NCBI GenBank assembly: GCA_025456225.1
Contig: JALOLB010000004.1
Span: 1 to 44,262 of the forward strand
From: Thermoanaerobaculaceae bacterium
Lineage (GTDB): Bacteria > Acidobacteriota > Thermoanaerobaculia > Thermoanaerobaculales > Thermoanaerobaculaceae
DNA length: 44,262 nt
Reading direction: 5' to 3'
The notes under the pieces are model-generated. The model was not told where the DNA came from and did no database searches. It was given only the letters and a program-made list of their open reading frames with translations. This document shows positions 6,648 to 19,820 of this stretch, in pieces (the first letter of the stretch is position 1; each line of letters begins with the position of its first letter). A program made the position numbers and the translations under genes.

Positions 6648-7091
6648 TCAGTTGTAGGCCTCCATGAGCTCGCGGGGCTCCGCCAGGAGGTGCGCCGCCA
6701 GCTCTCGCATGCCGGCGTCATGCCAGAAGCTGAGCTTGTCGTGAGCTTCGAGGTACTTCAGTGGAATCGGGTGCGTTCCCACCACCACCGGCAGGCCGTA
6801 CTGCTTCTCCATGAACTCCTTGAAGCGTCGGATATTGGGGCAGGGTGGGTAGCCGACGACGAGGCCGGTCGCCAGGTGCACGACATCGCACTTGTTTCTC
6901 AGGAACTCGGCAGGGACGTACTCCACGTTGCCGCCCGGGCACCCGCCGCAGGTGGAGTACCCGACGATCTCGACCGGCTCGTCGGCGGGATAGCGGGAGA
7001 AGCCTCCATGCCGTTCCCGCAGTGCCCGGAAGCACTTGCCGCCGCCGCAGTCGCGGTAGCGGGCGCAGATGATGATCCCGACTCTGGTCAT
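6648..7091 (-). CDS. CGGC-domain protein
   Basis: A 147-residue cytoplasmic protein with nine Cys. GIIICARYRDCGGGKC begins near residue 5, Y-S-T-C-G-G-C-P-G-G-N (CGGC at 48-51) is the motif that names the family, and YPPCPNIRRFKEFMEKQYGLPVVVGTHPIP follows. CGGC proteins are small, anaerobe-associated, probably metal- or cluster-binding proteins of unproven function. The ATG at 7091 has a strong GGAGGAG site. It lies 26 bases after the trans-sulfuration gene and 11 before the TPR-barrel gene, which ties it to sulfur handling in the same transcript. Confidence 0.85.
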   Translation of the reverse strand: MTRVGIIICARYRDCGGGKCFRALRERHGGFSRYPADEPVEIVGYSTCGGCPGGNVEYVPAEFLRNKCDVVHLATGLVVGYPPCPNIRRFKEFMEKQYGLPVVVGTHPIPLKYLEAHDKLSFWHDAGMRELAAHLLAEPRELMEAYN

Positions 7092-7117: not shown

Positions 7118-8308
7118 CTATGCCTGATCGAGCGCCTGGGAGAGGTCGGCGATGACGTCCTCGACATCCTCGCACCCCACCGAGAGCCTCACGAGGCCGT
7201 CGGAGATCCCGGCCGCCAGGCGGTCCGGTCGCGGCATCGCCGCATGGGTCATGCTGGCCGGATGCTGGATCAGCGACTCCACCCCTCCGAGCGACACCGC
7301 GAGGGTCATGAGCTTGACGTGGTTGAGCATGCGCACGCCAGCCTCGAGGCCGCCCCGCAGCTCGAAGGAGATGAGGGAGCCGGGGCCGTCCATCTGGCGA
7401 TGTCCCAGCTCGTACTGGGGGTGGCTCGGCAGGCCCGGGTAGCGCACCCACTCCACCTTGGGGTGCTGCTCCAGCCACGGCGCCACCGTCAGGGCGCCGG
7501 CCTGAGAGGTACGCACCCGCATCGCCAGGGTCCGCAGCCCACGCAGGGTGAGCCATGCCTGGTGGGGGTCCATGCACGCTCCGAGGTAGGCGTGGACGGG
7601 CCGGATGCGCCGGTGCATCGCCTCGGTCGCCGAGACCACCATGCCGGCCACGATGTCCGAGTGCCCGTTGATGAACTTGGTCATGCTGTGCATCACGACA
7701 TCGGCGCCCCACTCGATGGGGCGCTGCAGCGCCGGGCTGGCGAAGGTGTTGTCGACCAGCAACGTGGCGCCGTTCGCGTGAGCGATGGCGGCGACGGCGG
7801 CCAGGTCGGTGATCGCCATGGTTGGGTTGGCCGGTGTCTCGACGAGGACCAACCGGGTCTCGGGCCGTACGGCGGCCTTCACGGCGGCAAGATCAGCGGT
7901 CTCGACAAAGGTCGATGTGACTCCGAATCGGCTGAAGTCGCGCTCGATCACGACGCGGGAGGGGCCGTACACCGAGCTCGAGCCGACCACGTGGTCGCCC
8001 TGACCAAGGAGGGCGACGAGTACGGTGCACAGCGCACTCATGCCCGAGGACGTGGCGAGCGCCCCGGCGCCCCCCTCCAGGGCCGCCACGGCTGCCTCGA
8101 GCCGGGCGGTCGTGGGGTTGCCCATGCGGGTGTAGATGAACCCGTCCTCCTGCCCGGCGAACCGGGCGGCGCCCTGCTCGCAGCTTGCGAAGGCGAAGGT
8201 CGAGGTCTGGTAGATGGGGGGCGCCACGGCGCCCGTTGTCGGGTCGATCTCCGATCCGGCGTGAATGGTCAGGGTGCTCCGGCCGAGGTGCTTGCTGTCG
8301 TAAGTCAC
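7118..8308 (-). CDS. PLP-dependent trans-sulfuration enzyme (methionine gamma-lyase/cystathionine gamma-synthase family)
   Basis: A 396-residue type-I PLP enzyme of the Cys/Met metabolism family, of full usual length. Hallmarks are APPIYQTSTF near 33, YTRMGNPT for phosphate and PLP binding, LATSSGMSAL, DNTFASPALQRP, the PLP lysine in HSMTKFINGHSD (about residue 208), SLGGVESLIQHPASMTH and GLVRLSVGCEDVEDVIADL. The last two are especially close to methionine gamma-lyases. However, the active-site Cys often found after YG in those lyases is Pro here (VYGPSR), so cystathionine gamma-lyase or -synthase activity is equally possible. The GTG at 8308 has AAGGAGG five bases upstream. It sits 25 bases after the IscU-Mrp-ORP gene. 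A lyase that frees a thiol or sulfide would suit a neighbouring metal-sulfur cluster system (inference). Confidence 0.9.
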   Translation of the reverse strand: MTYDSKHLGRSTLTIHAGSEIDPTTGAVAPPIYQTSTFAFASCEQGAARFAGQEDGFIYTRMGNPTTARLEAAVAALEGGAGALATSSGMSALCTVLVALLGQGDHVVGSSSVYGPSRVVIERDFSRFGVTSTFVETADLAAVKAAVRPETRLVLVETPANPTMAITDLAAVAAIAHANGATLLVDNTFASPALQRPIEWGADVVMHSMTKFINGHSDIVAGMVVSATEAMHRRIRPVHAYLGACMDPHQAWLTLRGLRTLAMRVRTSQAGALTVAPWLEQHPKVEWVRYPGLPSHPQYELGHRQMDGPGSLISFELRGGLEAGVRMLNHVKLMTLAVSLGGVESLIQHPASMTHAAMPRPDRLAAGISDGLVRLSVGCEDVEDVIADLSQALDQA

Positions 8309-8333: not shown

Positions 8334-9932
8334 TCAGTGGTCGCAGACGTTCTCACCGGACACGAGGGTGCCGGCCATCCAGGCGCTGACGAGGGCCTCG
8401 GGGGTGTCCGAGGGGACGCCCACCACGACCTGGATGCCGTGCCCTGTGAAGAGCTGCTGGGCGCGGGAGCCCATCCCTCCGGCAAGGATGAGGTGGGCGC
8501 CGCGCTCGGCGAGCCACGGCGGCAGCAGCCCGGGCTGGTGCTCGGGCGCCTGCACGTCCTGGCGGGCGAGGATCTCGCGCCGGCCGGTGTCAACGTCGAC
8601 GAGGGCGAACGCCGCGCAGTGCCCGAAGTGCTGGGCGAGGCGGCCATCGGCAAGGGGAATCGCAATTCGCATGGGTTGCTCCTGTTTCCTTTCAGGGTTC
8701 GCTGACGCCGGCTCCGGCAGGGTTGCACCCGCCAGAGCCAGCAGAGGCGTGAAAGCACGGTCGAAGGCCTCGGCGATCGGGGCGATGGTCCACGGCAGGC
8801 GCAGCACCGTGCCGGCGTCGCCGGTGGTCGCGATCGCCGGATGCATCGGGATGCGGCCCAGGAACGGCACGCTCATCTCGGATGCCATCCTCTCTCCGGC
8901 GCCGGCGCCGAAGACATCGGTGACATGACCGCAGGAAGGGCAGACCATGGAGCTCATGTTCTCCACCACACCGAGCACGGGCAGACCGAGCTGGCGGCAG
9001 AAGGTGACGGACTTGCGCACCGCGGCGATGGCCACGTCCTGGGGGGTGGTGACGACGACGGCGCCATCGGCGTGACCGAGAAGCTGGCACGCGGAGAGCG
9101 GCTCGTCGCCGGTGCCGGGGGGGGCGTCCACCACCAGGAGGTCGAGGTCGCCCCACTCGACGTCGCGCAGGAGCTGCTCGATCACCTTGGCCTTCATCGG
9201 GCCGCGCCAGATCACCGCCTGGTCCCGGCCGTCCAGCAGCAACCCCACGGACATCACCTTGACCCCGCAGACCTCGATCGGGATCAGCGCCTCGCCGACG
9301 ACGACAGGTCGCTGCCCTTCGATCCCGGCCATCGTGGGCACACTCGGTCCGTGCACGTCCACGTCGAGAAGCCCCACCGCCAGGCCGGCGCGGGCAGCAG
9401 CGGCAGCAAGGCTCACCGCCACCGTGCTCTTGCCGACCCCGCCCTTGCCCGACAGCACGATGATCTGGTGGCGGATGGCTGCCACCCGCGCGCGGAGCTG
9501 CTCGGCTTCGGCGACGCGGGCCGCGGCCTGGCGGGCCTGCTCGGAGCGCCCGTCTTCGCCGCCGCGGAGCGCGTCCCGGCAGGCGGCGTGCAGCGTCTCG
9601 GCGGCCAGTGCGGCGCAGTGTCGTGACTCCTCGGGCAGCCCGCCCAGCTCCTGCAGCACCTCGCCGGGGCCGATTGCCAGCGCCTGGTCGAGCGGCAGGC
9701 CGCGCGCCAGCTCGGTCACCGCACTTCCGGAGGCCAGCGACGGGGCACAGCCGGTGGTCGCAAAGCGCGCCTCGGTGATCCGCTCCGCCTTGCAGCACAG
9801 CCAGATCTCCATGGTGTCGCCGCACGTCCCGGTGATCCGAGCGTACCCGTCGAAGACCAGAGACGCCCCAAGGTTGCGGGGGGATTGGGCGTGATCGAGA
9901 AATGCAGGGGATGGCTCAAGCTCTGATTGCAC
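8334..9932 (-). CDS. IscU-like / Mrp (ApbC) P-loop / ORP (NifX-fold) triple-domain fusion
   Basis: A 532-residue protein with three domains. Residues about 8-125 resemble an IscU/NifU scaffold: NLGA, GTCGDTMEIWL, TTGCAPSLASGSAVTELARG and HCAALAAETLHAAC, with Cys at 37, 62, 106 and 118. Residues about 155-400 are an Mrp/NBP35-type ATPase with Walker A GKGGVGKST (162-170), DAPPGTGDEP and the cluster-binding CPSC (331-334). From 421 a NifX/ORP domain follows (MRIAIPLADGRLAQHFGHCAAFALVD). Mrp fused to an ORP domain matches MrpORP of Desulfovibrio; the N-terminal scaffold is an addition. No stop separates Mrp and ORP, but an ATG at 8672 with CAGGAG six bases upstream could also give a free ORP domain. 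GTG at 9932 follows GGAGGAG and overlaps the preceding ATPase gene by 17 bases. Confidence 0.88.
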   Translation of the reverse strand: MQSELEPSPAFLDHAQSPRNLGASLVFDGYARITGTCGDTMEIWLCCKAERITEARFATTGCAPSLASGSAVTELARGLPLDQALAIGPGEVLQELGGLPEESRHCAALAAETLHAACRDALRGGEDGRSEQARQAAARVAEAEQLRARVAAIRHQIIVLSGKGGVGKSTVAVSLAAAAARAGLAVGLLDVDVHGPSVPTMAGIEGQRPVVVGEALIPIEVCGVKVMSVGLLLDGRDQAVIWRGPMKAKVIEQLLRDVEWGDLDLLVVDAPPGTGDEPLSACQLLGHADGAVVVTTPQDVAIAAVRKSVTFCRQLGLPVLGVVENMSSMVCPSCGHVTDVFGAGAGERMASEMSVPFLGRIPMHPAIATTGDAGTVLRLPWTIAPIAEAFDRAFTPLLALAGATLPEPASANPERKQEQPMRIAIPLADGRLAQHFGHCAAFALVDVDTGRREILARQDVQAPEHQPGLLPPWLAERGAHLILAGGMGSRAQQLFTGHGIQVVVGVPSDTPEALVSAWMAGTLVSGENVCDH

Positions 9933-10800
9933 TCGCTCCTCCAATGGCCTGCAGGCGAGCCCACAGCGCCGTGATCTCGTCAGCGGCGGGACCTTTCAGC
10001 TCGACAACCGGACGACCCTGCACCTGGGCCGTGGTGACGGTCAGGTCGTAAGGGATGCGCCCAACGACCTGCGCCCCCTGCGCCCGCGCCAGCTCCTCGA
10101 TGTCGGCGGTCAGCTCCGGGTGAAGGTCCCACTTGTTCACGCACACGCTCGGGGGCACGCCGAAGTGCCGGCAGAGCTCGAGCACGCGCTCGAGGTCGTG
10201 GCGCCCCGACGGTGTCGGCTCGGTCACCACCAGCACCCCCGTCGCCTCGCTCAGAGAGGCGATGACCGGGCAGCCGATGCCCGGCGGGCCGTCCACCAGC
10301 ACCCACGTCTCACCCCGTTCCACGGCCAACTTCCGGGCCTCCCGGCGCACCAGGGTGACGAGCTTGCCCGAGCTCTCCCCGCCGGGGTCGAGACGGGCAT
10401 GCACCATGGGGCCGACCCGAGTCTCGGACACGTACAGCTCACCGCAGCGGCGGGACGGGAAGTCGATGGCCGCCGCCGGACAGATCCGGACACACAGGCC
10501 GCACCCCTCGCACAGCAGCGGCTCCACGGCGTAGGAGCCGTTGTGAGCCAGGATCGCGCCGGCGCGACAGAGCGGCGCACACGCCCCACAACCCGTGCAC
10601 GCCTCGGCCCGGATCATCGCCTCGTGCCCCGCGAAGAACGGCTCGCTGCGGAGCACCACGGGGTGTAGCAGCAGGTGCAGGTCGGCAGCGTCCACGTCGC
10701 AGTCGGCCAGCACCGCGCGGCCGGCCAGCACCGCCAGGGAGCCCAGCACGCTCGTCTTGCCGGTGCCGCCCTTGCCGCTCAGGACGACGAGCTCCCTCAC
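9916..10800 (-). CDS. MinD/ParA-type ATPase with inserted 2x[4Fe-4S] ferredoxin domain (second of a pair)
   Basis: A 294-residue P-loop ATPase. Walker A SGKGGTGKTS lies at 8-17. Two ferredoxin motifs, CTGCGACAPLCRAGA and CEGCGLCVRICPAAA, lie near residues 65-110, and VLVDGPPGIGCPV provides Walker B. This architecture is that of the two MinD-like ATPases of the Desulfovibrio ORP complex. GTG at 10800 overlaps the stop of the first ATPase gene (GTGA), so the pair is translationally coupled. It is likely cytosolic and an ATP-driven partner in assembling or positioning a metal-sulfur protein; that role is inferred from the family. Confidence 0.9.
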   Translation of the reverse strand: MRELVVLSGKGGTGKTSVLGSLAVLAGRAVLADCDVDAADLHLLLHPVVLRSEPFFAGHEAMIRAEACTGCGACAPLCRAGAILAHNGSYAVEPLLCEGCGLCVRICPAAAIDFPSRRCGELYVSETRVGPMVHARLDPGGESSGKLVTLVRREARKLAVERGETWVLVDGPPGIGCPVIASLSEATGVLVVTEPTPSGRHDLERVLELCRHFGVPPSVCVNKWDLHPELTADIEELARAQGAQVVGRIPYDLTVTTAQVQGRPVVELKGPAADEITALWARLQAIGGASAIRA

Positions 10801-11699
10801 AGGTTCACCCCCTCGTCCACGGCGTAGAACACCCGGCGGCCGCAGGTGCGGACCATCACCGCGTGGCGCGCCATCTCGGCGAGGCGGTCGAGCAAAGCGA
10901 GAAAGGCTGGTCGCAGCTCGGGGCAGGCACTCACCACGGGAAGACCCCGCGCGTAGGCCTCGGCAATGCGCCGATCCTGGGGAATCTCCATGAGAATCGG
11001 GATGCCCTCCTTCGCACAGTACTCGTGGACCCGGGCATCGCCGGCGCCGGCACGGTTGACGATGACGCCGAATGGCAGCCCCAGCCGGCGCACCGTCTCC
11101 ACCGCCAGCTCGAGGTCGTTCAGGCCGAAGGGCGTGGGCTCCGTGACCAGGACCACCACGTCGGCGCCGCGAACGGCCGCGACCACCGGGCACGAGGTAC
11201 CGGGAGGGGCATCCACGATCTGGAGCTCCTCCCCATCTCCGCGCGCCCGCACCGCCCGCACCACCGGCGGCGCAAGGGTCTGCCCGACGTCCAACCTCCC
11301 CGTGATGAGGGTGATGGTGCCAGCCTGGATCTCGGTGAGCTCGCCGATCCGGCGGGGCTCCTCCCGGAGGGCGCCGGCCGGGCACAGGCGCACGCACGCG
11401 CCACACGCGTGGCAGAGGCCGGGGAAGACGTGTGCGCCAGTCGGGAGCACGATGATTCCACCGAACTGGCACGTCTCGCCGCAGGTGCCGCACGCCGTGC
11501 AGGCGTCGAGGTCGACGGCCGGCGTCGGCAGCGTGACATCCTCGCGAAAGGTCTGTTCTCCCGCCAGGAACAGGTGACAGTTCGGCTCCTCGACATCGCA
11601 GTCGAGCAGCCGCACCGGCCGGTCGGCCGCGAGAGCGAGGGAGAGGGCGACCGTGGTCTTGCCCGTGCCGCCCTTTCCCGAGGCGATGGCGACGATCAC
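10797..11699 (-). CDS. MinD/ParA-type ATPase with inserted 2x[4Fe-4S] ferredoxin domain (first of a pair)
   Basis: A 300-residue P-loop ATPase with Walker A ASGKGGTGKTT (7-17), cluster motifs CTACGTCGETCQFGG and CHACGACVRLCPAGA (about 67-110), then IVDAPPGTSCPV and VTEPTPFGLNDLELAVE. It is clearly homologous to the next gene but not a recent copy. GTG at 11699 overlaps the ORP-like gene's stop by 4 bases. Tandem ferredoxin-MinD pairs are a fixed part of ORP gene clusters. Confidence 0.9.
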   Translation of the reverse strand: MIVAIASGKGGTGKTTVALSLALAADRPVRLLDCDVEEPNCHLFLAGEQTFREDVTLPTPAVDLDACTACGTCGETCQFGGIIVLPTGAHVFPGLCHACGACVRLCPAGALREEPRRIGELTEIQAGTITLITGRLDVGQTLAPPVVRAVRARGDGEELQIVDAPPGTSCPVVAAVRGADVVVLVTEPTPFGLNDLELAVETVRRLGLPFGVIVNRAGAGDARVHEYCAKEGIPILMEIPQDRRIAEAYARGLPVVSACPELRPAFLALLDRLAEMARHAVMVRTCGRRVFYAVDEGVNL

Positions 11700-12058
11700 G
11701 CCCAGTGCCCCGCCACGTCGGCCGCGTCGGCCTCCTTCAGGCGGCCGGCCGCCAGGCTTGCCACCGCCTCTGCCACCGTACCCTCGGCACCGGTGAACAC
11801 CTTGACCTCGCCAGCCATAAGCGCTGCAAACGCCTTTGGGCCGCAGTGGCCGGTGACGATGGCCTCGGCCCCGGCGCGGCAGACGAGCGCCGCGGCCTGG
11901 ACCCCGGCACCCTGCGCCGCGTCCAGCGCCTGCGTGTTTGGGATCTCGGTCAGCTCGCGGCTTTCCGTGTCGATCAGCACGAAGGTGCGGGCACGGCCGA
12001 AGCGGGGATCGACCGGGGCGTCCCAGGCCGCATGCTGTGCGGTGATGGCGACCTTCAT
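11696..12058 (-). CDS. ORP-like protein (dinitrogenase iron-molybdenum cofactor/NifX fold)
   Basis: A 120-residue protein covering the whole NifX-type domain: MKVAITAQ at the start, DPRFGRARTFVLIDTES, then GAGVQAAALVCRAGAEAIVTGHCGPKAFAALMAGEVKVFTGAEGTV. Its length equals that of the orange protein of Desulfovibrio (about 117 residues), which holds a Mo-Cu-sulfide cluster non-covalently. Whether this one binds Mo, Cu or another metal cannot be read from sequence. ATG at 12058 overlaps the DUF5320 stop (ATGA). Confidence 0.85.
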   Translation of the reverse strand: MKVAITAQHAAWDAPVDPRFGRARTFVLIDTESRELTEIPNTQALDAAQGAGVQAAALVCRAGAEAIVTGHCGPKAFAALMAGEVKVFTGAEGTVAEAVASLAAGRLKEADAADVAGHWA

Positions 12059-12420
12059 CCCTTGCCTCCCGACCCGCCGTCGGTGTCGCGGTTGGAAGCG
12101 CCGTCGATCTGGGCGCGCACGGCCGCGAGCTCGCTCTCCAGCGCCCTGGCGCGTGCCTCGAGCCACTGTTTCTCGCTCACGGGAGCGCCAGCAGGCATCT
12201 CTCCCCGTGCCCAACCGGGCACGCCCGTGGCCCGGAATGTGTGACGCCAGCCGCGGCCACCGCGGCCGCCTCCGGCATGCCCCCGCCCCCGGCCGAAGCC
12301 GCGACCGGCTCCAAACCCCGGCTGGGCGGACGTGGAAGCCTGTGACGCTCCGCAATGCCCGAGCCCACGGCCCGTCATCGGTCCTTCTCGCAGCGGTCCT
12401 GTGCGATCTCCTCCTGGCAT
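12055..12420 (-). CDS. DUF5320-type Gly/Arg-rich protein
   Basis: A 121-residue protein with the DUF5320 opening MPGGDRTGPLREGPMTGRG, a Gly/Arg-rich middle (GAGRGFGRGRGHAGGG) and a C-terminal coiled-coil-like helix (SEKQWLEARARALESELAAVRAQIDG). DUF5320 proteins accompany NifX/ORP and MinD genes in many anaerobes; their function is unknown. The ATG has an extended GAGGAGGAG ribosome site. It ends inside the start of the ORP-like gene. Confidence 0.82.
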   Translation of the reverse strand: MPGGDRTGPLREGPMTGRGLGHCGASQASTSAQPGFGAGRGFGRGRGHAGGGRGGRGWRHTFRATGVPGWARGEMPAGAPVSEKQWLEARARALESELAAVRAQIDGASNRDTDGGSGGKG

Positions 12421-12435
12421 GATCTCCTCCTCCTC

Positions 12436-13080
12436 TCAGCTCTGTGGGCCGGCCCCACCACGGGGGCCTTTGCCCTTGCCACGGCCCTGTCCCTGACCTG
12501 CTCCGCGGCCGTCGCGCGGCGGAGCACCACGTCCACCGCCCGGGCGCGCACCGCCAGGCCGGGGTTCGCCCTGGTGGCACGGTCCCTGTCCACGACCGGT
12601 GCCTGGGCCCTCACCACGGGGTCCGGTTCCATCACCTCTCGGCATGGTCTCCTCCCTTTCTTCAACCGGCTGGCCCCGCCGGCAGCGACGGCCCATGCGG
12701 CCATGTCGTCGGCCGTGGCAGCCCGGCATCGACAGCGAGGGACTGGGTAGCTGGCCGGACAGGTAGGCGGCGATGATCAGCTCCACATCCCCGGCCAGGA
12801 ACGGGACGAGCCTCAACCCGAAAGACGCCGCCTGCTCGGCCACTGCCCTCGAGACGGCACCGCACAGAACGGTTCGAATTCCCTGGCTCGAGAGGGCCGC
12901 CAGCTTGGCGCCACCGGTTTCGGGCAGCTCCAGCTCGGTGCGATCACCGGCCTTCCCGTCCTGCACGGTGAGCAGGAGCGCCCGGCTCGACACATCGAGC
13001 ACCGGGGAGACCCGCTCACCCCACACCGTCACGGCGATTCGATCCTGTCCCATCCATGGAGCGGAAGGAGCAACTCGCAT
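12436..13080 (-). CDS. NifX/ORP-like domain fused in frame to a DUF5320-like tail
   Basis: A 214-residue reading frame. Residues about 10-120 are a NifX-type domain (DRIAVTVWGERVSPVLDVSSRALLL, GIRTVLCGAVSRAVAEQAASFGLRLVPFLAGDVELIIAAYLSGQL), ending in a basic Cys patch (MPGCHGRRHGRMGRRCRRGQ). Without a stop it runs into MPRGDGTGPRGEGPGTGRGQ, a DUF5320-like sequence. An internal ATG at 12645 is preceded by GGGAGGAG at three bases, so the tail (69 residues) may also be made as a separate protein. It is the first gene of the cluster, 77 bases downstream of the sigma-54 activator gene. ATG at 13080 lacks a strong ribosome site; an alternative start lies nine codons in. Confidence 0.75.
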   Translation of the reverse strand: MRVAPSAPWMGQDRIAVTVWGERVSPVLDVSSRALLLTVQDGKAGDRTELELPETGGAKLAALSSQGIRTVLCGAVSRAVAEQAASFGLRLVPFLAGDVELIIAAYLSGQLPSPSLSMPGCHGRRHGRMGRRCRRGQPVEEREETMPRGDGTGPRGEGPGTGRGQGPCHQGEPRPGGARPGGGRGAPPRDGRGAGQGQGRGKGKGPRGGAGPQS

Positions 13081-13157
13081 GCCATTTGTGCTCCGAGAGC
13101 GTAACTACCCAGTGCAGTGTGACCTGACTGGCACCCATGGCGCAGGAATGACAGTGT

Positions 13158-14576
13158 TCAGTCGCTGGAATGCGGCTCTATGGAGCCAGACTGTCGCGTG
13201 GATGCAATGGTTCCTGCCCTGGTGCGACGCCTGCCGTCCGTGTCGGGCAGTGTCAAACCCAGCTCCTTGACCTTGCGAAAGAAGGTGGCGCGGTGCATCC
13301 CCAGATCGCGCGCCGCGGCCTGCCGGTTGTTGTGGTTGCGGCGCAGCGCGTCATGGATCGCCTCGGCCTCCGCCGCGTGAACCGCTCCGGCGAGGTCGCT
13401 GGCTCGCGCCACGCGCCCGTGGAGCGGCTCGGGAAGATGCCTCGGCTCGATGCGCTGGCCGCGACAGAGCACGAACGCATGCTCGATTGCATTCTCGAGC
13501 TCGCGCACGTTGCCTGGCCAGTCGTGGGCGACCAGCAGCGCCAGGGCGTCGGGCGACACGCCGCTCACGGTGCGGCCCTGCCGGCAGTTGAGCGCGCTCG
13601 TGAAATGCTCGACGAGCAGGGGAATGTCCTCGCGGCGGCGGCGCAGCGGCGGCAGCTCGAGCCGCACGACGTTGATGCGGTAGAACAGGTCCTCCCGGAA
13701 CGAGCCTGCTCGCACCAGCTCCCGCAGGTCGCGGTTGGTGGCAGCGATGATCCGGGCGCTGGTGGGGATGGACGTGTTGCTGCCGAGGGGCTCGAAGGCA
13801 TGCTCCTGGAGGACGCGCAGGAGCTTGACCTGTACCGTGGGAGTCAGCTCCCCGACCTCGTCGAGCAGCAGGGTGCCGCGCTCGGCGCTGGCGAACCGTC
13901 CGGGGCGGTCGCGGTCGGCGCCCGTGAAGGCGCCGGCCCGAACCCCGAACAGCTCGGCCTCGATCAGGGACTCGGGAATCGCCGCGCAGTTCACGGCCAC
14001 GAACGGGCCGCGCCGCCGCTGGCTGGCACCGTGGATGGCCCGGGCGAGCAGCTCCTTGCCGGTCCCGGTCTCGCCCTCGAGGAGGACCGCACAGTCGCTG
14101 TCGGCGATGGCTGGGAGAATGTCGAAGATCCGGCGCATGCTCACGCTGTGGCTCACCAGCTCGCCGATCTGGAACCGGCCTTCGAGCTCGCGGCGCAGCT
14201 CCTCGACGACTGTGAGGTCACGGAATGTCTCGGCGCCGCCGAGGACCTCGCCCGCGGCGTTGCGCAGGAGCGCCGTGGAGATGGAGATCGGGATCCGGCG
14301 GCCGTCCCCGTCGATGATGAAGCAGGGCTGGTTGATGATCGGCTTCCTGCTCTCGATGGTACGGCGGAGAGCGCAGGCGCCCTCGCACAGGCTCGCCCGG
14401 AACACGTCGGAGCAGCGCTGGCCGATCGCTTCCCGGCGGGGAATCCCGGTGATCTCCTCCGCCGCCCGGTTGAACGAGGTGATCCGCCAGTCGAGGTCGA
14501 CCGTGAACACCCCGTCCGAGATGCTCTCGAGGATGCTCTCGGTGGGCTCGGGCGGCTGCTGGCGCTTTCTCAACAC
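13158..14576 (-). CDS. PAS domain sigma-54-dependent transcriptional activator
   Basis: A 472-residue bacterial enhancer-binding protein. A PAS domain (about 12-115, ILESISDGVFTVDLDWRITSFN) carries a Cys cluster, C..VFRASLCEGAC, that could bind a cofactor or sense redox. The AAA+ domain has Walker A GETGTGKE (168-175), the sigma-54 contact loop GAFTGA (215-220) and LLLDEVGE (236-243). A Fis-type HTH lies at the end (ALRRNHNNRQAAARDLGMHRATFFRKVKELGL). GTG at 14576 has GAGAGGTG just upstream. ORP operons of Desulfovibrio are controlled by sigma-54 and a cognate activator of this type, so it is the likely regulator of the minus-strand genes that follow. I could not find a convincing -24/-12 promoter for them. 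Confidence 0.93.
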   Translation of the reverse strand: MLRKRQQPPEPTESILESISDGVFTVDLDWRITSFNRAAEEITGIPRREAIGQRCSDVFRASLCEGACALRRTIESRKPIINQPCFIIDGDGRRIPISISTALLRNAAGEVLGGAETFRDLTVVEELRRELEGRFQIGELVSHSVSMRRIFDILPAIADSDCAVLLEGETGTGKELLARAIHGASQRRRGPFVAVNCAAIPESLIEAELFGVRAGAFTGADRDRPGRFASAERGTLLLDEVGELTPTVQVKLLRVLQEHAFEPLGSNTSIPTSARIIAATNRDLRELVRAGSFREDLFYRINVVRLELPPLRRRREDIPLLVEHFTSALNCRQGRTVSGVSPDALALLVAHDWPGNVRELENAIEHAFVLCRGQRIEPRHLPEPLHGRVARASDLAGAVHAAEAEAIHDALRRNHNNRQAAARDLGMHRATFFRKVKELGLTLPDTDGRRRTRAGTIASTRQSGSIEPHSSD

Positions 14577-14867
14577 TTCACCTCTCAGGCCGGAGAGGGA
14601 GGGATCCGGCGAGTTGCCTGCACCGGCTTCGATGTCCGGTGGGCTCCATGCGATCCTAGGCCCGCCGAAGCTCGTCCGCAACCTGTGGACCCGTCATCAC
14701 GACGGCCGGAGTTCCCCCACACTCGACCAAGGCGCTGCCGCGTCAGGCAGCGTGGGTCGGTGCGGCACCACGATCCTGCCCCTGGCTGGAGGATGGGGAA
14801 GGTAGGCCGGAAACGGTGTGTCCGCCGGCGGGCTGTAGTCCGAGCTCCTCCAGTGGTGCGGTCGAGG
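14577..14867. other. Spacer between the molybdopterin-like protein gene and the sigma-54 activator
   Basis: About 290 bases with no supportable gene. It holds a perfect 7-bp stem (CGCTGCC/GGCAGCG, 14733-14752) downstream of the 14868-15935 gene. The activator's promoter should also lie here. I could not pick out a clear -10/-35 or -24/-12 pair. Confidence 0.5.
14733..14752 (-). terminator. Possible terminator hairpin
   Basis: CGCTGCC-GCGTCA-GGCAGCG forms a perfect 7-bp stem with a six-base loop, about 115 bases beyond the stop of the molybdopterin-like protein gene and before the sigma-54 activator. No U-tract follows, so intrinsic termination is uncertain. Confidence 0.3.
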
Positions 14868-15935
14868 CTACAGCGTGCCGAGACGGATCTCCTGGACGGA
14901 GTGGACGCTGCGGTCGATGAAGAAGTCGTTGCGCACCACGAGGCGGAACGGGCCGCGGTCGTCGAGAGGCTTGTCGTCCTCGGTGGCGCCCAGGACCAGG
15001 TTGTCGGGGTCGCCGAAGACCTCGCGCCCCGACATGAGCGTGCGGTAGCCATCGGCGGCGGTGACCAGGATCCACAGGCGGTCGAGGTCGGTGCCGGCCG
15101 GGACGTGCGGCGCCACGACCTGCGCGAGAGAAGGCCCGGTCCAGGAGTGCATACCGTGGAAGCCGCGGCCCATGCCGAAGCTGGCGTCGGTGAAGCTCAG
15201 GCGGCTCAGCGCCCCGAGCGCCGCAGCGTTGAGAGGCACCGATGTGCCGTCCAGTCGGTGCAGCAGGACGGTCGGTCCGGGCTTCGCCCCCTTCTTCATG
15301 TGTGCGGGGACCTTGACGCCGACCTGTCTGACGCTGACTTCGACCACGTCCTCCACGAAGCGCACCGGCCAGCCGTCACCCGCGGCGACCAGGCAGACAC
15401 CCTTCGGGACCGAGAGGTCGGGCACCTTCTTCTCGGTGTGGCAGTCGCCACAGCCCTCCGGGATCTTCAACCCCGCCCGCGCCCCGACCTCGAGCCAGCC
15501 GTCGGGCTGGGCGAGAGGCGGGATCTCGTCGTGGTGGTGCGGGACGAGCAGACGCAAGCGGTTGGCCAGCAGCACCCGACCACCCTGCATCCCCATCTCG
15601 AGCTCGCCGATGGAGAGCAGCGCCTCCTGCCCGTTTCGGCCCTCCACGACGACGAGGAGGTCGATCGGGCGGTTGAAGCCGTCCTCGACCTTCTTCGTGA
15701 CGGCGGCCCTGCCGACGAGAGAGAACAGGGTGGGGCCGGAGACCTCGTAGGTGCCGCGGTAGCGCCCGTCCGGCCAGGCGACCCTGACCCTGTCGGACAC
15801 CCGGGGCAGCTCGGCGAGAACCGTGGCATCGGCCTTGATCTCGGTCTTCACGCATCCGGTCACGGCGACCTGGGCATGGATCGTGCCAGCAACCAGGAGA
15901 AGGACGAGGACGACAAGGGCTCGAGCAGGGCGCAT
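14868..15935 (-). CDS. Exported protein with two molybdopterin-binding-like domains and one CxxCH
   Basis: A 355-residue protein with a signal peptide (residues 1-21, LVVLVLLLVAGTIHAQ). Two related beta-rich domains (about 30-131 and 185-355) each resemble the oxidoreductase molybdopterin-binding (sulfite-oxidase) fold pattern: ...YEVSGPTLFSLVG...LLVVVEGRNGQEALLSIGELEM and ...WTGPSLAQVVAPHVP...WILVTAADGYRTLMSGREVF...RGPFRLVVRND. Between them are a HHHDE cluster (133-137) and a single haem-type motif CGDCH (162-166). The catalytic Cys of sulfite oxidases is not evident, so cofactor binding is unproven. ATG at 15935 has GGAGGATCCCC upstream. It follows the TonB-dependent receptor by 51 bases and is probably co-transcribed. 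Its last 31 codons recur as a relic at 2172-2266. Confidence 0.65.
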   Translation of the reverse strand: MRPARALVVLVLLLVAGTIHAQVAVTGCVKTEIKADATVLAELPRVSDRVRVAWPDGRYRGTYEVSGPTLFSLVGRAAVTKKVEDGFNRPIDLLVVVEGRNGQEALLSIGELEMGMQGGRVLLANRLRLLVPHHHDEIPPLAQPDGWLEVGARAGLKIPEGCGDCHTEKKVPDLSVPKGVCLVAAGDGWPVRFVEDVVEVSVRQVGVKVPAHMKKGAKPGPTVLLHRLDGTSVPLNAAALGALSRLSFTDASFGMGRGFHGMHSWTGPSLAQVVAPHVPAGTDLDRLWILVTAADGYRTLMSGREVFGDPDNLVLGATEDDKPLDDRGPFRLVVRNDFFIDRSVHSVQEIRLGTL

Positions 15936-15986
15936 GGGGATCCTCCAGGAGGGAAGGGGCGGCGCGTGCCGCCCGGTCACGCTGTT

Positions 15987-18056
15987 CTACAGCCTGGCCG
16001 ACAGGCCCACCGACACGGTGCGGCCAGGAGCCGGGAAGCCGTAGTCGGTCTCGTAGTCGAGGTCGCCGATGTTGCGGATCGAGGTCCAGAGCTCGAGGCT
16101 CTTGACGAGGTCGATTCCGAACCGGGCGTTGGTCAGGACGTAGCTGTCCACCTTCTTGGTGGGGTCGGTGGGGTACTTCGCCGACGGCAGGGAGGTGAAG
16201 ACCTCGTCCATGTACGTGCCGTCGAGGTCGAGGCGCGACGAGAACCAGGGCAGCCTCCACTGGATCCCGACGCCGGCCTTGTGCCTGGGGACGTTCAGGA
16301 CCTTGTTGGTGACGTGCCCCTCGCTGAGGTCCCCGGCGTCGTTGAGGGTGAAGTCGCCGCGCAGGGTGAGCGACTGGCTGGCGAGGAGGATCGCCCCCAG
16401 CTCGATGCCGCGCATGCGGATCTCGCCGTAGTTCTGGTAGAGGTTGGTGGGGTCGCCGCTGTTGCGGCTGATGAGGTCCTTCGTGTCGTACCAGAACCCG
16501 GAGAGCTCCACCCGCAGGGTGTCGGCCACCAGGGTGTTGTACCCGACGAGGAAGTTGGTGCTCTGCTCGGGCTCGAGATCGACGTTGCCACCCTTGCTGG
16601 AGTAGAGGTGCTGCAGCAGCGGGAAGCGGCTCTTCTGCGCCACGGATGCGAAGAGACGGCTCTGGGCGGACAGGATGTAGGTGAGCCCTGCCATGGGGTT
16701 CACGAAGCTGTCGGATGGCCTGGGCAGCGGGTCCTGGCGCACGAGGTTGCCGCTCGTGTCGAGGACGTTGCGCTCCGCGTCGGAGACGTCGAACCAGTCG
16801 TAGCTCACGCCGAGGACGGCCTGCACGCGCTCGGAGAGCTTCCACTCGTCCTCGAGGCCCACGGAGCCGGTGTAGGACTGGGTCTCGGCGAAGGGGAGGT
16901 AGGTGTCGTCCCGCTCCTGATGGTTGTCGGTCTTGTAGTTGAGCGACAGCCGCGCGGTGTTTCGGGCGCCGAGAGGCGACTCGAGCAGGACCGTACCACC
17001 CCCCAGGAAGTCCTTGAAGGTGCTGCGCGCCATCTTCTGGGTGTAGGTCTCGTCGCGGTAGGAGTCGTAGTTGTCCTTGTGATCGTGGTAGAAGAGCTTG
17101 CCCTTCATCACGAGCTGCCTGGACAGTCGCTGGCGGAGGTCGACGTCGGCGCCGCGGTCGCGATAGTCCGGCATGCGGGCGAACTGGGAGAACTGGGGCG
17201 TGCTGAGGAACACCTGGACCTGGTCGGTGGCGGGCGGCATGCCCTTGGTCATGTCCAGGTAGTGGAGGTTGACCCAGTAGGCGGAGTCGGCGCTCGCCTC
17301 GTAGCCCACCTTGAACCACGCGTCGTCCTTGTCGACGTCGGAGTTGACGCGGCGGCCCTTGCCCTGCAGCACCGCCTTGGTGGTGCTGCTCGGGCTCTTC
17401 GTGACGATCGTGCCCTCGTAGGGCTCGTAGTCGCCCGAGACGTCCCAGCCGTCCGACTCCATGTGGGTGTAGCTCAACCAGTAGTTGATCTTGCCGACCT
17501 TCTGGCCGTGCGTCACCACGTACTGCCGGAGGCCGTTGTCGCCGGCCTCAATCGTGCCGCCGTAGTGAGGCGTGTCGCCGGCCTTCTTGGTGATGATGTT
17601 GACGACGCCGCCCATGGCGTTGGCGCCGTAGAGGACCGAGGCGGTCGCCTTGGTCACGTCGATGCGGGCGATGTTGTCGGTGGGGATCTGGTTGAGGTCG
17701 AGCTTGCCGTAGTTGGTCTCGTAGTACGGCACGCCGTCGATGAGGACCAGGATCTTCGACTGGTCGAACCCGTGGATCGACACGTTGGGCTCGTTCTTGC
17801 GGCCGGTCGAGACGCGGATGCCGGGTGTCGTCGCGAGCGCTTCCGCCACGGTGCGGGCGTTCTGGGCCTCGATGTCCTCGGCGGTGACCGTCGTGATCAG
17901 CGTGACCTCGGCCTGCGGCGCATCGGCGGTCACCGTGATCTCCGCCATGGAGTAGAGCTCGAACTCCGGCGGGACCGTGGGCTGGGCCTGCTGCGCCAGG
18001 GCGGTGCCAAGGCCGAGCAGGGTCAGGGTGGTGACTGTCAGAATACGGGGGATCAT
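15987..18056 (-). CDS. TonB-dependent outer-membrane receptor
   Basis: A 689-residue protein: signal peptide 1-21 (LTLLGLGTALAQ), TonB-box-like EITVTA (39-44), plug domain about 50-158 (TAEDIEAQNARTVAEALATTPGIRVS, KILVLIDGVPYYE, VLYGANAMGGVVNIITKK), then a 22-strand-type barrel ending GRTVSVGLSARL. The plug is BtuB/CirA-like, but the ligand cannot be read from sequence. Linkage to a molybdopterin-like protein and, divergently, to a tungstate-binding protein suggests Mo or W oxyanion or chelate uptake; cobalamin or iron remain possible. ATG at 18056 is preceded by a TTG two codons upstream (18062) that is better spaced from AAAGGAGG. Confidence 0.92.
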   Translation of the reverse strand: MIPRILTVTTLTLLGLGTALAQQAQPTVPPEFELYSMAEITVTADAPQAEVTLITTVTAEDIEAQNARTVAEALATTPGIRVSTGRKNEPNVSIHGFDQSKILVLIDGVPYYETNYGKLDLNQIPTDNIARIDVTKATASVLYGANAMGGVVNIITKKAGDTPHYGGTIEAGDNGLRQYVVTHGQKVGKINYWLSYTHMESDGWDVSGDYEPYEGTIVTKSPSSTTKAVLQGKGRRVNSDVDKDDAWFKVGYEASADSAYWVNLHYLDMTKGMPPATDQVQVFLSTPQFSQFARMPDYRDRGADVDLRQRLSRQLVMKGKLFYHDHKDNYDSYRDETYTQKMARSTFKDFLGGGTVLLESPLGARNTARLSLNYKTDNHQERDDTYLPFAETQSYTGSVGLEDEWKLSERVQAVLGVSYDWFDVSDAERNVLDTSGNLVRQDPLPRPSDSFVNPMAGLTYILSAQSRLFASVAQKSRFPLLQHLYSSKGGNVDLEPEQSTNFLVGYNTLVADTLRVELSGFWYDTKDLISRNSGDPTNLYQNYGEIRMRGIELGAILLASQSLTLRGDFTLNDAGDLSEGHVTNKVLNVPRHKAGVGIQWRLPWFSSRLDLDGTYMDEVFTSLPSAKYPTDPTKKVDSYVLTNARFGIDLVKSLELWTSIRNIGDLDYETDYGFPAPGRTVSVGLSARL

Positions 18057-18069
18057 GCTCAAGGGGGCC

Positions 18070-18244
18070 TCCTTTCCGAACACGGGAGGCCGGCAGGTCA
18101 CCCCGCCGACCCTCGGCTCGAGCCCTTCTCCCGGGCTTGCGAGCCTCGCCCGCGCCTTCCCTGTGGGATCGACGCGGGTCGGATGGCGCGTGAATCCTAT
18201 CACGAGGCGGTGGGGCGGAGCGCCCCGGCGACCTGGCAACCGGC
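18070..18244 (-). promoter_or_regulatory. Structured 5' leader of the TonB receptor gene (possible riboswitch)
   Basis: The leader can close a long-range helix. In mRNA sense, AGGUCGCC (18227-18234) pairs with GGUGACCU (18095-18102), and GCCGG (18240-18244) pairs with CCGGC (18089-18093). They enclose about 125 bases with local hairpins: GGGGCG-CUC-CGCCCC (18212-18226), CGUGA/UCACG (18189-18204) and AGCCC/GGGCU near 18121-18140. The 3' part, GACCUGCCGGC, resembles the conserved 3' box of cobalamin riboswitches. The rest of the B12 box is not convincing, so another class, or plain secondary structure, is possible. Confidence 0.35.
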
Positions 18245-18287
18245 TGCGAGTGGCCGCGGGTGGCAGCACCTTCCCCGTCTCTCTGCA

Positions 18288-18320
18288 TTGACAGATATTG
18301 GTGTTAGATATAGGTTGTCA
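18288..18320 (+). promoter_or_regulatory. Promoter/operator of the antitoxin operon
   Basis: TTGACA (18288-18293) is a perfect -35 box in a locally AT-rich stretch. TATAGG (18309-18314) or TAGGTT (18311-18316) could be the -10, which would start the transcript almost at the ATG (18323), a near-leaderless message. The stretch is bounded by TGACA (18289-18293) and TGTCA (18316-18320), an inverted repeat that suits autorepression by a ribbon-helix-helix antitoxin. Confidence 0.5.
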
Positions 18321-18322
18321 TC

Positions 18323-18553
18323 ATGAAAGTGATCTCCCTGCACGTGGACGAGGGTGTCTACCGTGGCCTGCAAGGTCGAGCGGCCCGCCTGGGGCGACCC
18401 GTGGCCGACCTGATCCGGGACGCCATGGAGAGCTATGTTCGCCAGGAGGCCGGGTCCGGGTCGTCGGTGCTCGATCTTCTGCCCCACGACTCCGGGAAGC
18501 TGCTGCGCACGTGGTTGCGAACCGAGCTGCAGGACGAGATGAGGTCCTTGTGA
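18323..18553 (+). CDS. Ribbon-helix-helix antitoxin (CopG/VapB-like)
   Basis: A 76-residue protein. MKVISLHVDEGVYRGLQGRA forms the beta strand and first helix of a ribbon-helix-helix fold, and GRPVADLIRDAMESYVRQE the second helix. The C-terminal half (SSVLDLLPHDSGKLLRTWL) should wrap the toxin. It overlaps the PIN gene by 4 bases (GTGA), the usual antitoxin-first order. Confidence 0.82.
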   Translation: MKVISLHVDEGVYRGLQGRAARLGRPVADLIRDAMESYVRQEAGSGSSVLDLLPHDSGKLLRTWLRTELQDEMRSL

Positions 18554-18984
18554 CGCTCGCTCTGGATACAGACGTCCTGGTCAACTGGCTCATGGACGGA
18601 GCACCTTCACATGCTGCCAGCTCGAGGCTGGTGCGGAGGGAGGTGGAGGAGCTGGGAGGAACTCTTGGCCTGGTTCCTCAAGTGATTCACGAGTTTCTCC
18701 ATGTTTGTACCGACCCCCGGCGGTTCGAGAGGCCGATGCCGATGAAGCGCGCGCTCGAGCTGGTAGGCGATCTGTGGGCCGCGCCGGAAGTGGTGCGGAT
18801 CGTGCCCGGGCCCGAGATGCTGCCACGCACGCTGGAGCTGATGCGCAATCTTCGCCTCGGGCGCAAGCGGATCCTCGACACCGCGCTCGCCGCCACAATC
18901 GAGATCGCGGGCGTGCGCCGCCTGGCGACCCTCAATCCTAGGGACTACAAGCTCTTCCCTTTCATCGAAACCGTCGTGCCATGA
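18550..18984 (+). CDS. PIN-domain ribonuclease toxin (VapC-like)
   Basis: A 144-residue protein. The acidic residues expected of a PIN nuclease are present: D6 and D8 in LALDTDVLVNWL, Glu in VIHEFLHVC, and Asp in RILDTALAATIEIAGVRRLATLNPRDYKLF. It probably cleaves RNA when free of its antitoxin. The GTG start overlaps the antitoxin gene, and its own stop overlaps the tupA-like start (ATGA). That coupling is unusual, since toxin-antitoxin pairs normally form separate units. Confidence 0.85.
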   Translation: MTLALDTDVLVNWLMDGAPSHAASSRLVRREVEELGGTLGLVPQVIHEFLHVCTDPRRFERPMPMKRALELVGDLWAAPEVVRIVPGPEMLPRTLELMRNLRLGRKRILDTALAATIEIAGVRRLATLNPRDYKLFPFIETVVP

Positions 18985-19820
18985 AGCGCCGACCTGGTGT
19001 CACAGCCCCGATTGTCTTGAGCCTGCTCGGGCTGACGAGGGCCACAATGGCGGCGGAGCCGGTCACCGTGATCCTGGCCACGACGACCTCGACCCAGGAC
19101 ACGGGCCTGCTGGATGCGCTCGTGCCGGCGTTCGAGAAAGCGCACCCCGAGATCAGGGTCAAGGCGATTGCCGTGGGCACCGGCGAGGCCCTGGCCATGG
19201 GCCGGCGGGGCGATGCCGACGTGCTCGTCGTGCACGCCCGGGCAGCCGAGGACGCGTTCATGGCCGAGAGCCACGGGCTGCTGCGCTACAATTTGATGCA
19301 CAACGACTTCGTACTGGCCGGGCCGCCGTCCGACCCGGCGGGCGTGAGGGGCAGGGGGATCCTGGACGCGCTGAAGGAGATTGCTGTGGCCCGTGCAACC
19401 TTCGTCACCCGGGGCGACGGGTCCGGCACCCACACGAGGGAGCTGGCGCTGTGGAAGCAGGCCGGCGTCGGCGTGCCGACCGGGAGCTGGTACCTCGAGG
19501 CGGGGCAGGGGATGGGCGCCACGGCCCGCATCGCCTCGGAGAAGCAGGCGTACACCCTGATGGACCGGGGGAGCTTCCTGGCGTTGCAGGCGACGCTCGC
19601 CCTCACGGTGGTATCGGAAGGCGGCGAGGAGCTGCTTAACCGGTACGGGGTCATCGTGGTGAGCCCCAGGACGCACCCGGGCGTCCGGGCAGCTCAGGGC
19701 AGGACGCTGGCCGACTGGCTCGTCTCGGCGGAAGGCCAGAAGCTGATCGGCGAGTTCGGGGTGACGCGTTTCGGCAGGGCGCTCTTCGTGCCCGACGCCC
19801 CTCATGCTGGCGCCAGGTAG
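18981..19820 (+). CDS. tupA: Tungstate/molybdate-binding periplasmic protein (TupA-like)
   Basis: A 279-residue protein with a signal peptide to about 25 (LSLLGLTRATMAAE). TupA signatures are present: VILATTTSTQDTGLLDALVPAFEK, VGTGEALAMGRRGDADVLVVH, FVTRGDGSGTHTRELALW and KQAYTLMDRGSFLAL. The STQDTG and RGDGSGTH loops form the oxyanion site in the family. No permease (TupB) or ATPase (TupC) gene follows; instead the next gene encodes the thioredoxin-like selenoprotein candidate, 17 bases on. The partner transporter must be elsewhere, or the protein acts in binding or sensing. Specificity for W over Mo is from family only. Confidence 0.88.
   Translation: MKRRPGVTAPIVLSLLGLTRATMAAEPVTVILATTTSTQDTGLLDALVPAFEKAHPEIRVKAIAVGTGEALAMGRRGDADVLVVHARAAEDAFMAESHGLLRYNLMHNDFVLAGPPSDPAGVRGRGILDALKEIAVARATFVTRGDGSGTHTRELALWKQAGVGVPTGSWYLEAGQGMGATARIASEKQAYTLMDRGSFLALQATLALTVVSEGGEELLNRYGVIVVSPRTHPGVRAAQGRTLADWLVSAEGQKLIGEFGVTRFGRALFVPDAPHAGAR

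Follow-up and report, generated by a model that had tools for sequence, protein, structure and literature searches.

MrpORP proteins, in which an Mrp ATPase is joined to a C-terminal ORP domain, are known from Desulfovibrio vulgaris. According to the accessible part of one account (PMC6345978), the Mrp domain passes an Fe-S cluster to Orp3/Orp4, the ORP domain holds its own [3Fe-4S] cluster, whose role is unclear, and Orp8 binds a Mo-Cu sulfide cluster (work cited there); whether the MrpORP cluster is assembled by the general Fe-S machinery or by a parallel route is left open. Neither a NifU-Mrp-ORP fusion nor NifU in ORP clusters is mentioned in that part of the paper, and a search by title and opening abstract, which mostly did not reach subscription journals, returned no description of either. 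Partial texts of two further papers concern the link between scaffold and ATPase: in two-hybrid tests both NifU and NifS of Helicobacter pylori pair with ApbC/Mrp (PMC8144621), and in E. coli cluster release from IscU is driven by HscA/HscB (PMC13423590).

The stretch of DNA analyzed here (the window, 44,262 nucleotides) encodes a protein in which a NifU/IscU-like domain precedes Mrp and ORP. Judged from sequence, the NifU-Mrp-ORP protein is probably a new MrpORP variant, and the ORP-linked NifU subfamily from which its N-terminus comes would be the wider result. In the preferred reading, given a probability of about 0.6, the fusion protein is a relay, made as one polypeptide, that hands Fe-S clusters from scaffold to carrier and is dedicated to maturing the ORP complex.

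The three-domain gene and its neighbourhood

An earlier note on this DNA proposed that positions 8334-9932 encode an IscU-Mrp-ORP protein, and the profile searches bear it out. The gene lies on the minus strand (Table 1), with 532 codons, a stop at 8334-8336, and a GTG start at 9932 that has GGAGG directly on its 5' side. All three domains pass their Pfam cut-offs: NifU_N at residues 11-119 (E 9e-23; 81.2 bits, cut-off 22), ParA/NUBPL (Mrp; PF10609) at residues 153-389 (E 5e-94, above the curated cut-off), and Nitro_FeMo-Co (PF02579) at residues 429-518 (E 3e-19; 69.6 bits, cut-off 26.3). The whole protein scores 480 against the cut-off of 450 for the NCBIfam MrpORP model NF041136. A chance or antisense frame at this place is rejected, since the plus-strand frame has stops and the three domains pass their cut-offs.

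Table 1. Features of the fusion gene and its cluster, by position in the window.
Feature	Position	Strand	Basis or remark
CGGC-domain protein	6648..7091	-	
Cys/Met PLP enzyme, nearest methionine gamma-lyase	7118..8308	-	476 bits (cut-off 549.7, not reached); GTG preceded by AGGAGG
NifU-Mrp-ORP three-domain gene	8337..9932	-	open frame, Pfam and NCBIfam profiles
ORP (Nitro_FeMo-Co) domain	8379..8648	-	residues 429-518; HFGHC and terminal CDH present
ATG codon 421, first residue of ORP, possible internal start	8670..8672	-	sequence and Shine-Dalgarno (SD) pairing
AGGAG, internal SD-like site in the Mrp-ORP linker	8679..8683	-	sequence
Mrp/NBP35 P-loop ATPase domain	8766..9476	-	residues 153-389; Walker A GKGGVGKS; CPSC (Cys331, Cys334)
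NifU-Mrp linker, Cys-free	9477..9575	-	helical in predicted model
NifU_N/IscU-like domain	9576..9902	-	residues 11-119; Cys37, Asp39, Cys62, His105, Cys106; LPEES-RHCA
OrpA1, ferredoxin-bearing MinD/ParA-type ATPase	9916..10800	-	overlaps fusion gene start
OrpA2, second ferredoxin-bearing MinD/ParA-type ATPase	10797..11699	-	
Stand-alone Nitro_FeMo-Co protein (Orp8-like)	11696..12058	-	
DUF5320 protein	12055..12420	-	
ORF, ORP-like N-terminal part, DUF5320-like C-terminal part	12436..13080	-	N-terminal part by eye; C-terminal part below Pfam cut-off
Sigma-54 -24/-12 consensus in front of cluster	13070..13084	-	exact TGGC-N7-TTGC
PAS/sigma-54 activator, Fis-type HTH	13158..14681	-	

The AlphaFold model of the protein (from 92 rows) has a mean pLDDT of 91 and a pTM of 0.77, with pLDDT below 50 over at least three residues only in segment 410-416; Foldseek matches parts of it to Cfd1/ApbC (Mrp) and to IscU structures, including IscU 7c8m (TM 0.85 by target). 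The cysteines at 37, 62 and 106, which the earlier note had likened to IscU ligands, are accompanied by Asp39 and His105, so that the ligand set is complete. The Mrp domain carries the deviant Walker A motif GKGGVGKST and a CXXC (CPSC); in the ORP domain HFGHC and CDH are present, and the first Cys of CXHFGHC is Ala. The same note placed scaffold, carrier and acceptor in one chain; the three domains are there, with ORP as a putative acceptor.

The fusion gene belongs to an ORP cluster with two MinD-type ATPases into which ferredoxin domains are inserted, an ORP protein and a sigma-54 activator. A sigma-54 pattern search returned 63 matches with at most one mismatch, against 38 expected, two of them exact, so the site listed in Table 1 is supported mainly by its place; the true start of the ORF at 12436..13080 likely lies downstream of 13080. 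A sigma-70 promoter search found none, and no cysteine desulfurase is seen in the ORP cluster. Genes resembling methionine gamma-lyase also adjoin Mrp/ORP genes in genomes of the same phylum (L138, L141, L145, L165, L166, L168-L170).

Farther along, a Moco/tungsten riboswitch (18053-18196, minus strand), which barely reaches its gathering score (36.1 against 36), immediately precedes the likely ATG (~18056) in the ORF of a TonB-dependent receptor (15987-18269, minus strand); this may point to regulated uptake of Mo/W next to the ORP cluster. A TupA-like tungstate-binding protein follows at 18981-19820 on the plus strand (206 bits, short of the 400 that NCBIfam requires). The open frame of 1718 aa at 13170-18326 (plus strand), which runs opposite to the regulator and TonB-receptor genes, is apparently a GC-rich shadow frame and no gene.

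Fusion junctions and their distribution

The junction between NifU and Mrp is solid: third-position GC in this linker is 0.91, which is coding-like, and there is no sign of a former boundary. Residues 119-152 hold no Cys, whereas in the eight other listed NifU-Mrp fusions the stretch from NifU to the P-loop contains 3-6 Cys; the spacing is 39 residues in the window protein versus 59-65 in those eight. The window protein has lost the Nbp35/MrpORP-like Cys-rich stretch of the other fusions. Among 22 Mrp-ORP rows the number of Cys ahead of the P-loop is zero in three and at least three in eight; the four-Cys motif therefore does not define the MrpORP family.

The fusion was surveyed at a limit of E 1e-85 with genomes grouped by phylum. 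In the window's own phylum 22 of 396 genomes have a match, five have NifU and Mrp in one frame (the window's genome, G098, G125, G349, and G373), and two have the three-domain form (the window's genome and G098, whose Mrp part is broken by a TAG). Matches occur in 15 of 294 genomes of the phylum of locus L008; three of these (G380, G625, and G680) have NifU-Mrp in one frame with ORP as a separate neighbouring gene, and none has the three-domain form, which is accordingly rare. Five other phyla gave matches in 5/235, 0/201, 2/149, 0/136 and 0/100 genomes and no fusion, weak negatives for the three phyla in which not even the centre genomes matched at this limit. The plasmid search yielded 369 matching records, none of which spans 80% of the query.

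Several of these genes deserve separate mention. In G680 and G625 the TAG that ends NifU-Mrp is followed at once, and in frame, by the ORP ATG (L135 5442-5443, L136 6304-6305), which leaves these genes a single stop-codon change from the three-domain form. The three-domain gene of G098 has its in-frame TAG mid-Mrp (L137 1262-1264), either decay or a sequence error. Pyrrolysine or other recoding at the TAG of these three full-span matches is rejected, since the TAG of G680 and G625 is the NifU-Mrp stop and only that of G098 lies inside Mrp. Divergent NifU-Mrp fusions with an N-terminal extension (L085, L086, and L143, from G373 and G349) form a long branch in both trees.

On a quickly built tree of 62 Mrp domains, with some long-branched rows and with 13 of 19 housekeeping rows removed by hand beforehand, the nine NifU-Mrp rows need at least six changes and the Mrp-ORP fusion at least 11. 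A single origin of the NifU-Mrp fusion is rejected on this tree (one clade, AU p 6.7e-5) and not clearly on the NifU tree, equally quick in kind (AU p 0.06; fewest changes three).

The second junction looks like a former gene boundary, as third-position GC falls to 0.61 in the Mrp-ORP linker. The residues ERKQEQP-M ahead of the ORP domain are the translated AGGAG and ATG, and because of this pair free ORP may be made alongside the fused form from one gene. Of 22 Mrp-ORP frames, 11 open their ORP part with an ATG or GTG (offset 0 or -1), and nine of these 11 have SD pairing of -5.5 kcal/mol or better. Fourteen of the frames have some start codon nearby, of which the three at offsets 4 or -4 are unlikely to be genuine; across all 14, SD pairing is stronger than at the 221 ATGs that occur in frame elsewhere in these genes (p 6e-4).

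These features also feed a rather unlikely alternative, in which NifU-Mrp is truly fused, ORP belongs to a gene of its own, nested or frameshifted, and the three-domain form reflects a stop codon lost recently, or an assembly error, at the Mrp-ORP boundary. The AGGAG and ATG and the low linker GC would fit it, as would a TGA in another frame just before the internal SD, but coding-type third positions persist to about eight codons before the ORP ATG, and in G693, G135 and G098 the Mrp-ORP frame passes through the SD region just as in the window. ORP is free in L008, where there is an ATGA overlap, and in G680/G625, and the sole other three-domain gene is the interrupted one of G098; in-frame MrpORP is nonetheless an established family, and the window protein passes its cut-off.

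The NifU domain and its subfamily

The window's NifU domain is a member of a distinct, largely ORP-linked IscU subfamily that lacks the Lys and Ser of LPxxK-x-HCS. Around His105-Cys106 it reads LPEES-R-HCA; canonical NifU rows have LPxxK-x-HCS, and in ORP-type rows some other residue replaces the Lys and Ala replaces the Ser. In a tree of 60 NifU domains the 26 canonical (KS) and 33 ORP-type (xA) rows are split by one branch with support 100, a split that persists with the motif columns masked; one further row (xS) falls on the xA side, and each of the nine fused rows belongs to the xA group. An ORP ATPase or Orp8 is encoded no more than 6 kb away in 20 of the 33 xA rows versus five of the 26 KS rows, rough shares given that flanks are short at many loci and that NifU similarity guided the choice of many; linkage to ORP is thus not exclusive to the xA subfamily. 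Rows without and with the Lys number 12:5 inside ORP clusters versus 8:21 outside (Fisher, p 0.006), in counts entered by hand that leave out the window, L043 (motif unreadable), and the 16 loci of a scan with the peptide PEESRHCA, which for that reason cannot support the motif.

Subfamily NifU genes sit in ORP clusters of several phyla, usually unfused. In the 16-locus scan of genome contigs a NifU ORF and Orp-type ATPases occur together in eight loci, from Planctomycetota (NifU fused to Mrp), Omnitrophota, Actinomycetota, Dehalococcoidales (two), WOR-3, and Deltaproteobacteria (two). G429, from the same phylum as L008, has OrpA2, OrpA1, NifU, Mrp and ORP in that order as five separate ORFs. 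A genome of the window's genus (G001) carries the same cluster with 61-86% identity per gene; its NifU part is 79% identical, and the contig ends at residue 81, before any junction to Mrp. Most ORP clusters examined have no fused NifU, and in many the stretch read contains no NifU at all. Elsewhere in the host genome two more NifU_N proteins are encoded, one consisting of NifU_N alone and the other a full NifU that also has Fer2_BFD and NifU domains, so the window's NifU is likely specialised.

The lost Lys and Ser, and scores below cut-off for all three equivalog models (NCBIfam NifU_clost, IscU and SufU), would fit a NifU domain that is no active scaffold but serves in structure or docking, or accepts sulfur in the manner of SufU. 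This reading is improbable: all three Cys persist, with Asp39 and His105, in the window protein and nearly all relatives, and NifU_clost and IscU outscore SufU. HscA binds the LPPVK of E. coli IscU, in the LPxxK region, and the subfamily has lost the conserved Lys of this site; a tethered Mrp may therefore replace release by the chaperone.

The proposed relay and its place among known systems

From the domains, ligands, neighbourhood, subfamily and recurrent fusion that are observed, we infer every biochemical step of the relay. The NifU domain would assemble or receive a cluster, with sulfur from the adjacent methionine-gamma-lyase-like enzyme or a general desulfurase. The tethered Mrp ATPase would take the cluster at CPSC in an ATP-dependent dimer, perhaps standing in for chaperone-driven release from the scaffold, and deliver it to ORP-complex proteins, chiefly OrpA1 and OrpA2, encoded just upstream. 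The ORP domain would dock or specify targets, and might also be made alone from the internal start.

The relay is supported by the domains and ligands, the ORP context, the recurrent NifU-Mrp fusion and the ORP-type motif of all fused rows and, by analogy and as far as the accessible texts go, by Mrp transfer to Orp3/Orp4 in D. vulgaris and the two-hybrid contact of NifU and ApbC in H. pylori. The Cys-less linker, the missing first Cys of ORP, the lack of a desulfurase in the cluster, the canonical NifU rows with ORP linkage and the many ORP clusters that have no fused NifU count against it. A relay that builds a heterometal (Mo-containing) cofactor and not plain Fe-S clusters is very doubtful. 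The riboswitch, TonB receptor and TupA-like protein would favour it, as would the Mo-Cu cluster cited for Orp8, but these genes lie outside the ORP operon, a few kb beyond the cluster, and are perhaps unrelated, and to our knowledge Fe-S is the cargo of every IscU/NifU scaffold and ApbC-type Mrp protein examined to date.

A scaffold, an ATP-driven carrier and an ORP domain in one ORP-cluster protein suggest that the cluster has its own cofactor assembly line. On the very question that PMC6345978, in its accessible part, leaves open, the recurrence of a distinct scaffold subfamily beside Mrp, or fused to it, in ORP clusters from several phyla predicts that a dedicated route runs in parallel. 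A broader version is tentative at best: ORP clusters might run an Fe-S line parallel to ISC, NIF and SUF, with Mrp-driven instead of Hsp70-driven handover, methionine-gamma-lyase-like sulfur supply, and a nested start yielding fused and free ORP. If the relay is real, a P-loop carrier, not Hsp70, would be the ATPase that empties an IscU-type scaffold, and the single-chain protein would let scaffold-to-carrier transfer be measured directly.

With NifU/IscU scaffolds (NifU_N; M. thermoacetophila IscU 7c8m, A. fulgidus IscU 4eb5) the window protein shares the fold and Cys37/Asp39/Cys62/His105/Cys106, but it has LPEES-RHCA, a fused Mrp, and its own subfamily on the tree. Two-domain NifU-Mrp fusions (L008, G125, G349, G373, G625, and G680) have the same order and NifU subfamily, and several adjoin a free ORP gene; they differ in being without an ORP domain and in their 3-6 linker Cys. 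The orp cluster of D. vulgaris, in the accessible parts of its descriptions (PMC6345978; PMC3897727), likewise has ferredoxin-like ORP proteins, MrpORP and sigma-54 control. MrpORP itself (DVU2109 of D. vulgaris, Dde_3202; NF041136) differs in its N-terminal four-Cys stretch (DvH, DdG20), absent from the window protein, which has IscU/NifU_N before Mrp and a possible internal ORP start; both share an Mrp ATPase with a C-terminal ORP domain, the CXXC, the CDH end, and an ORP cluster with a sigma-54 regulator.
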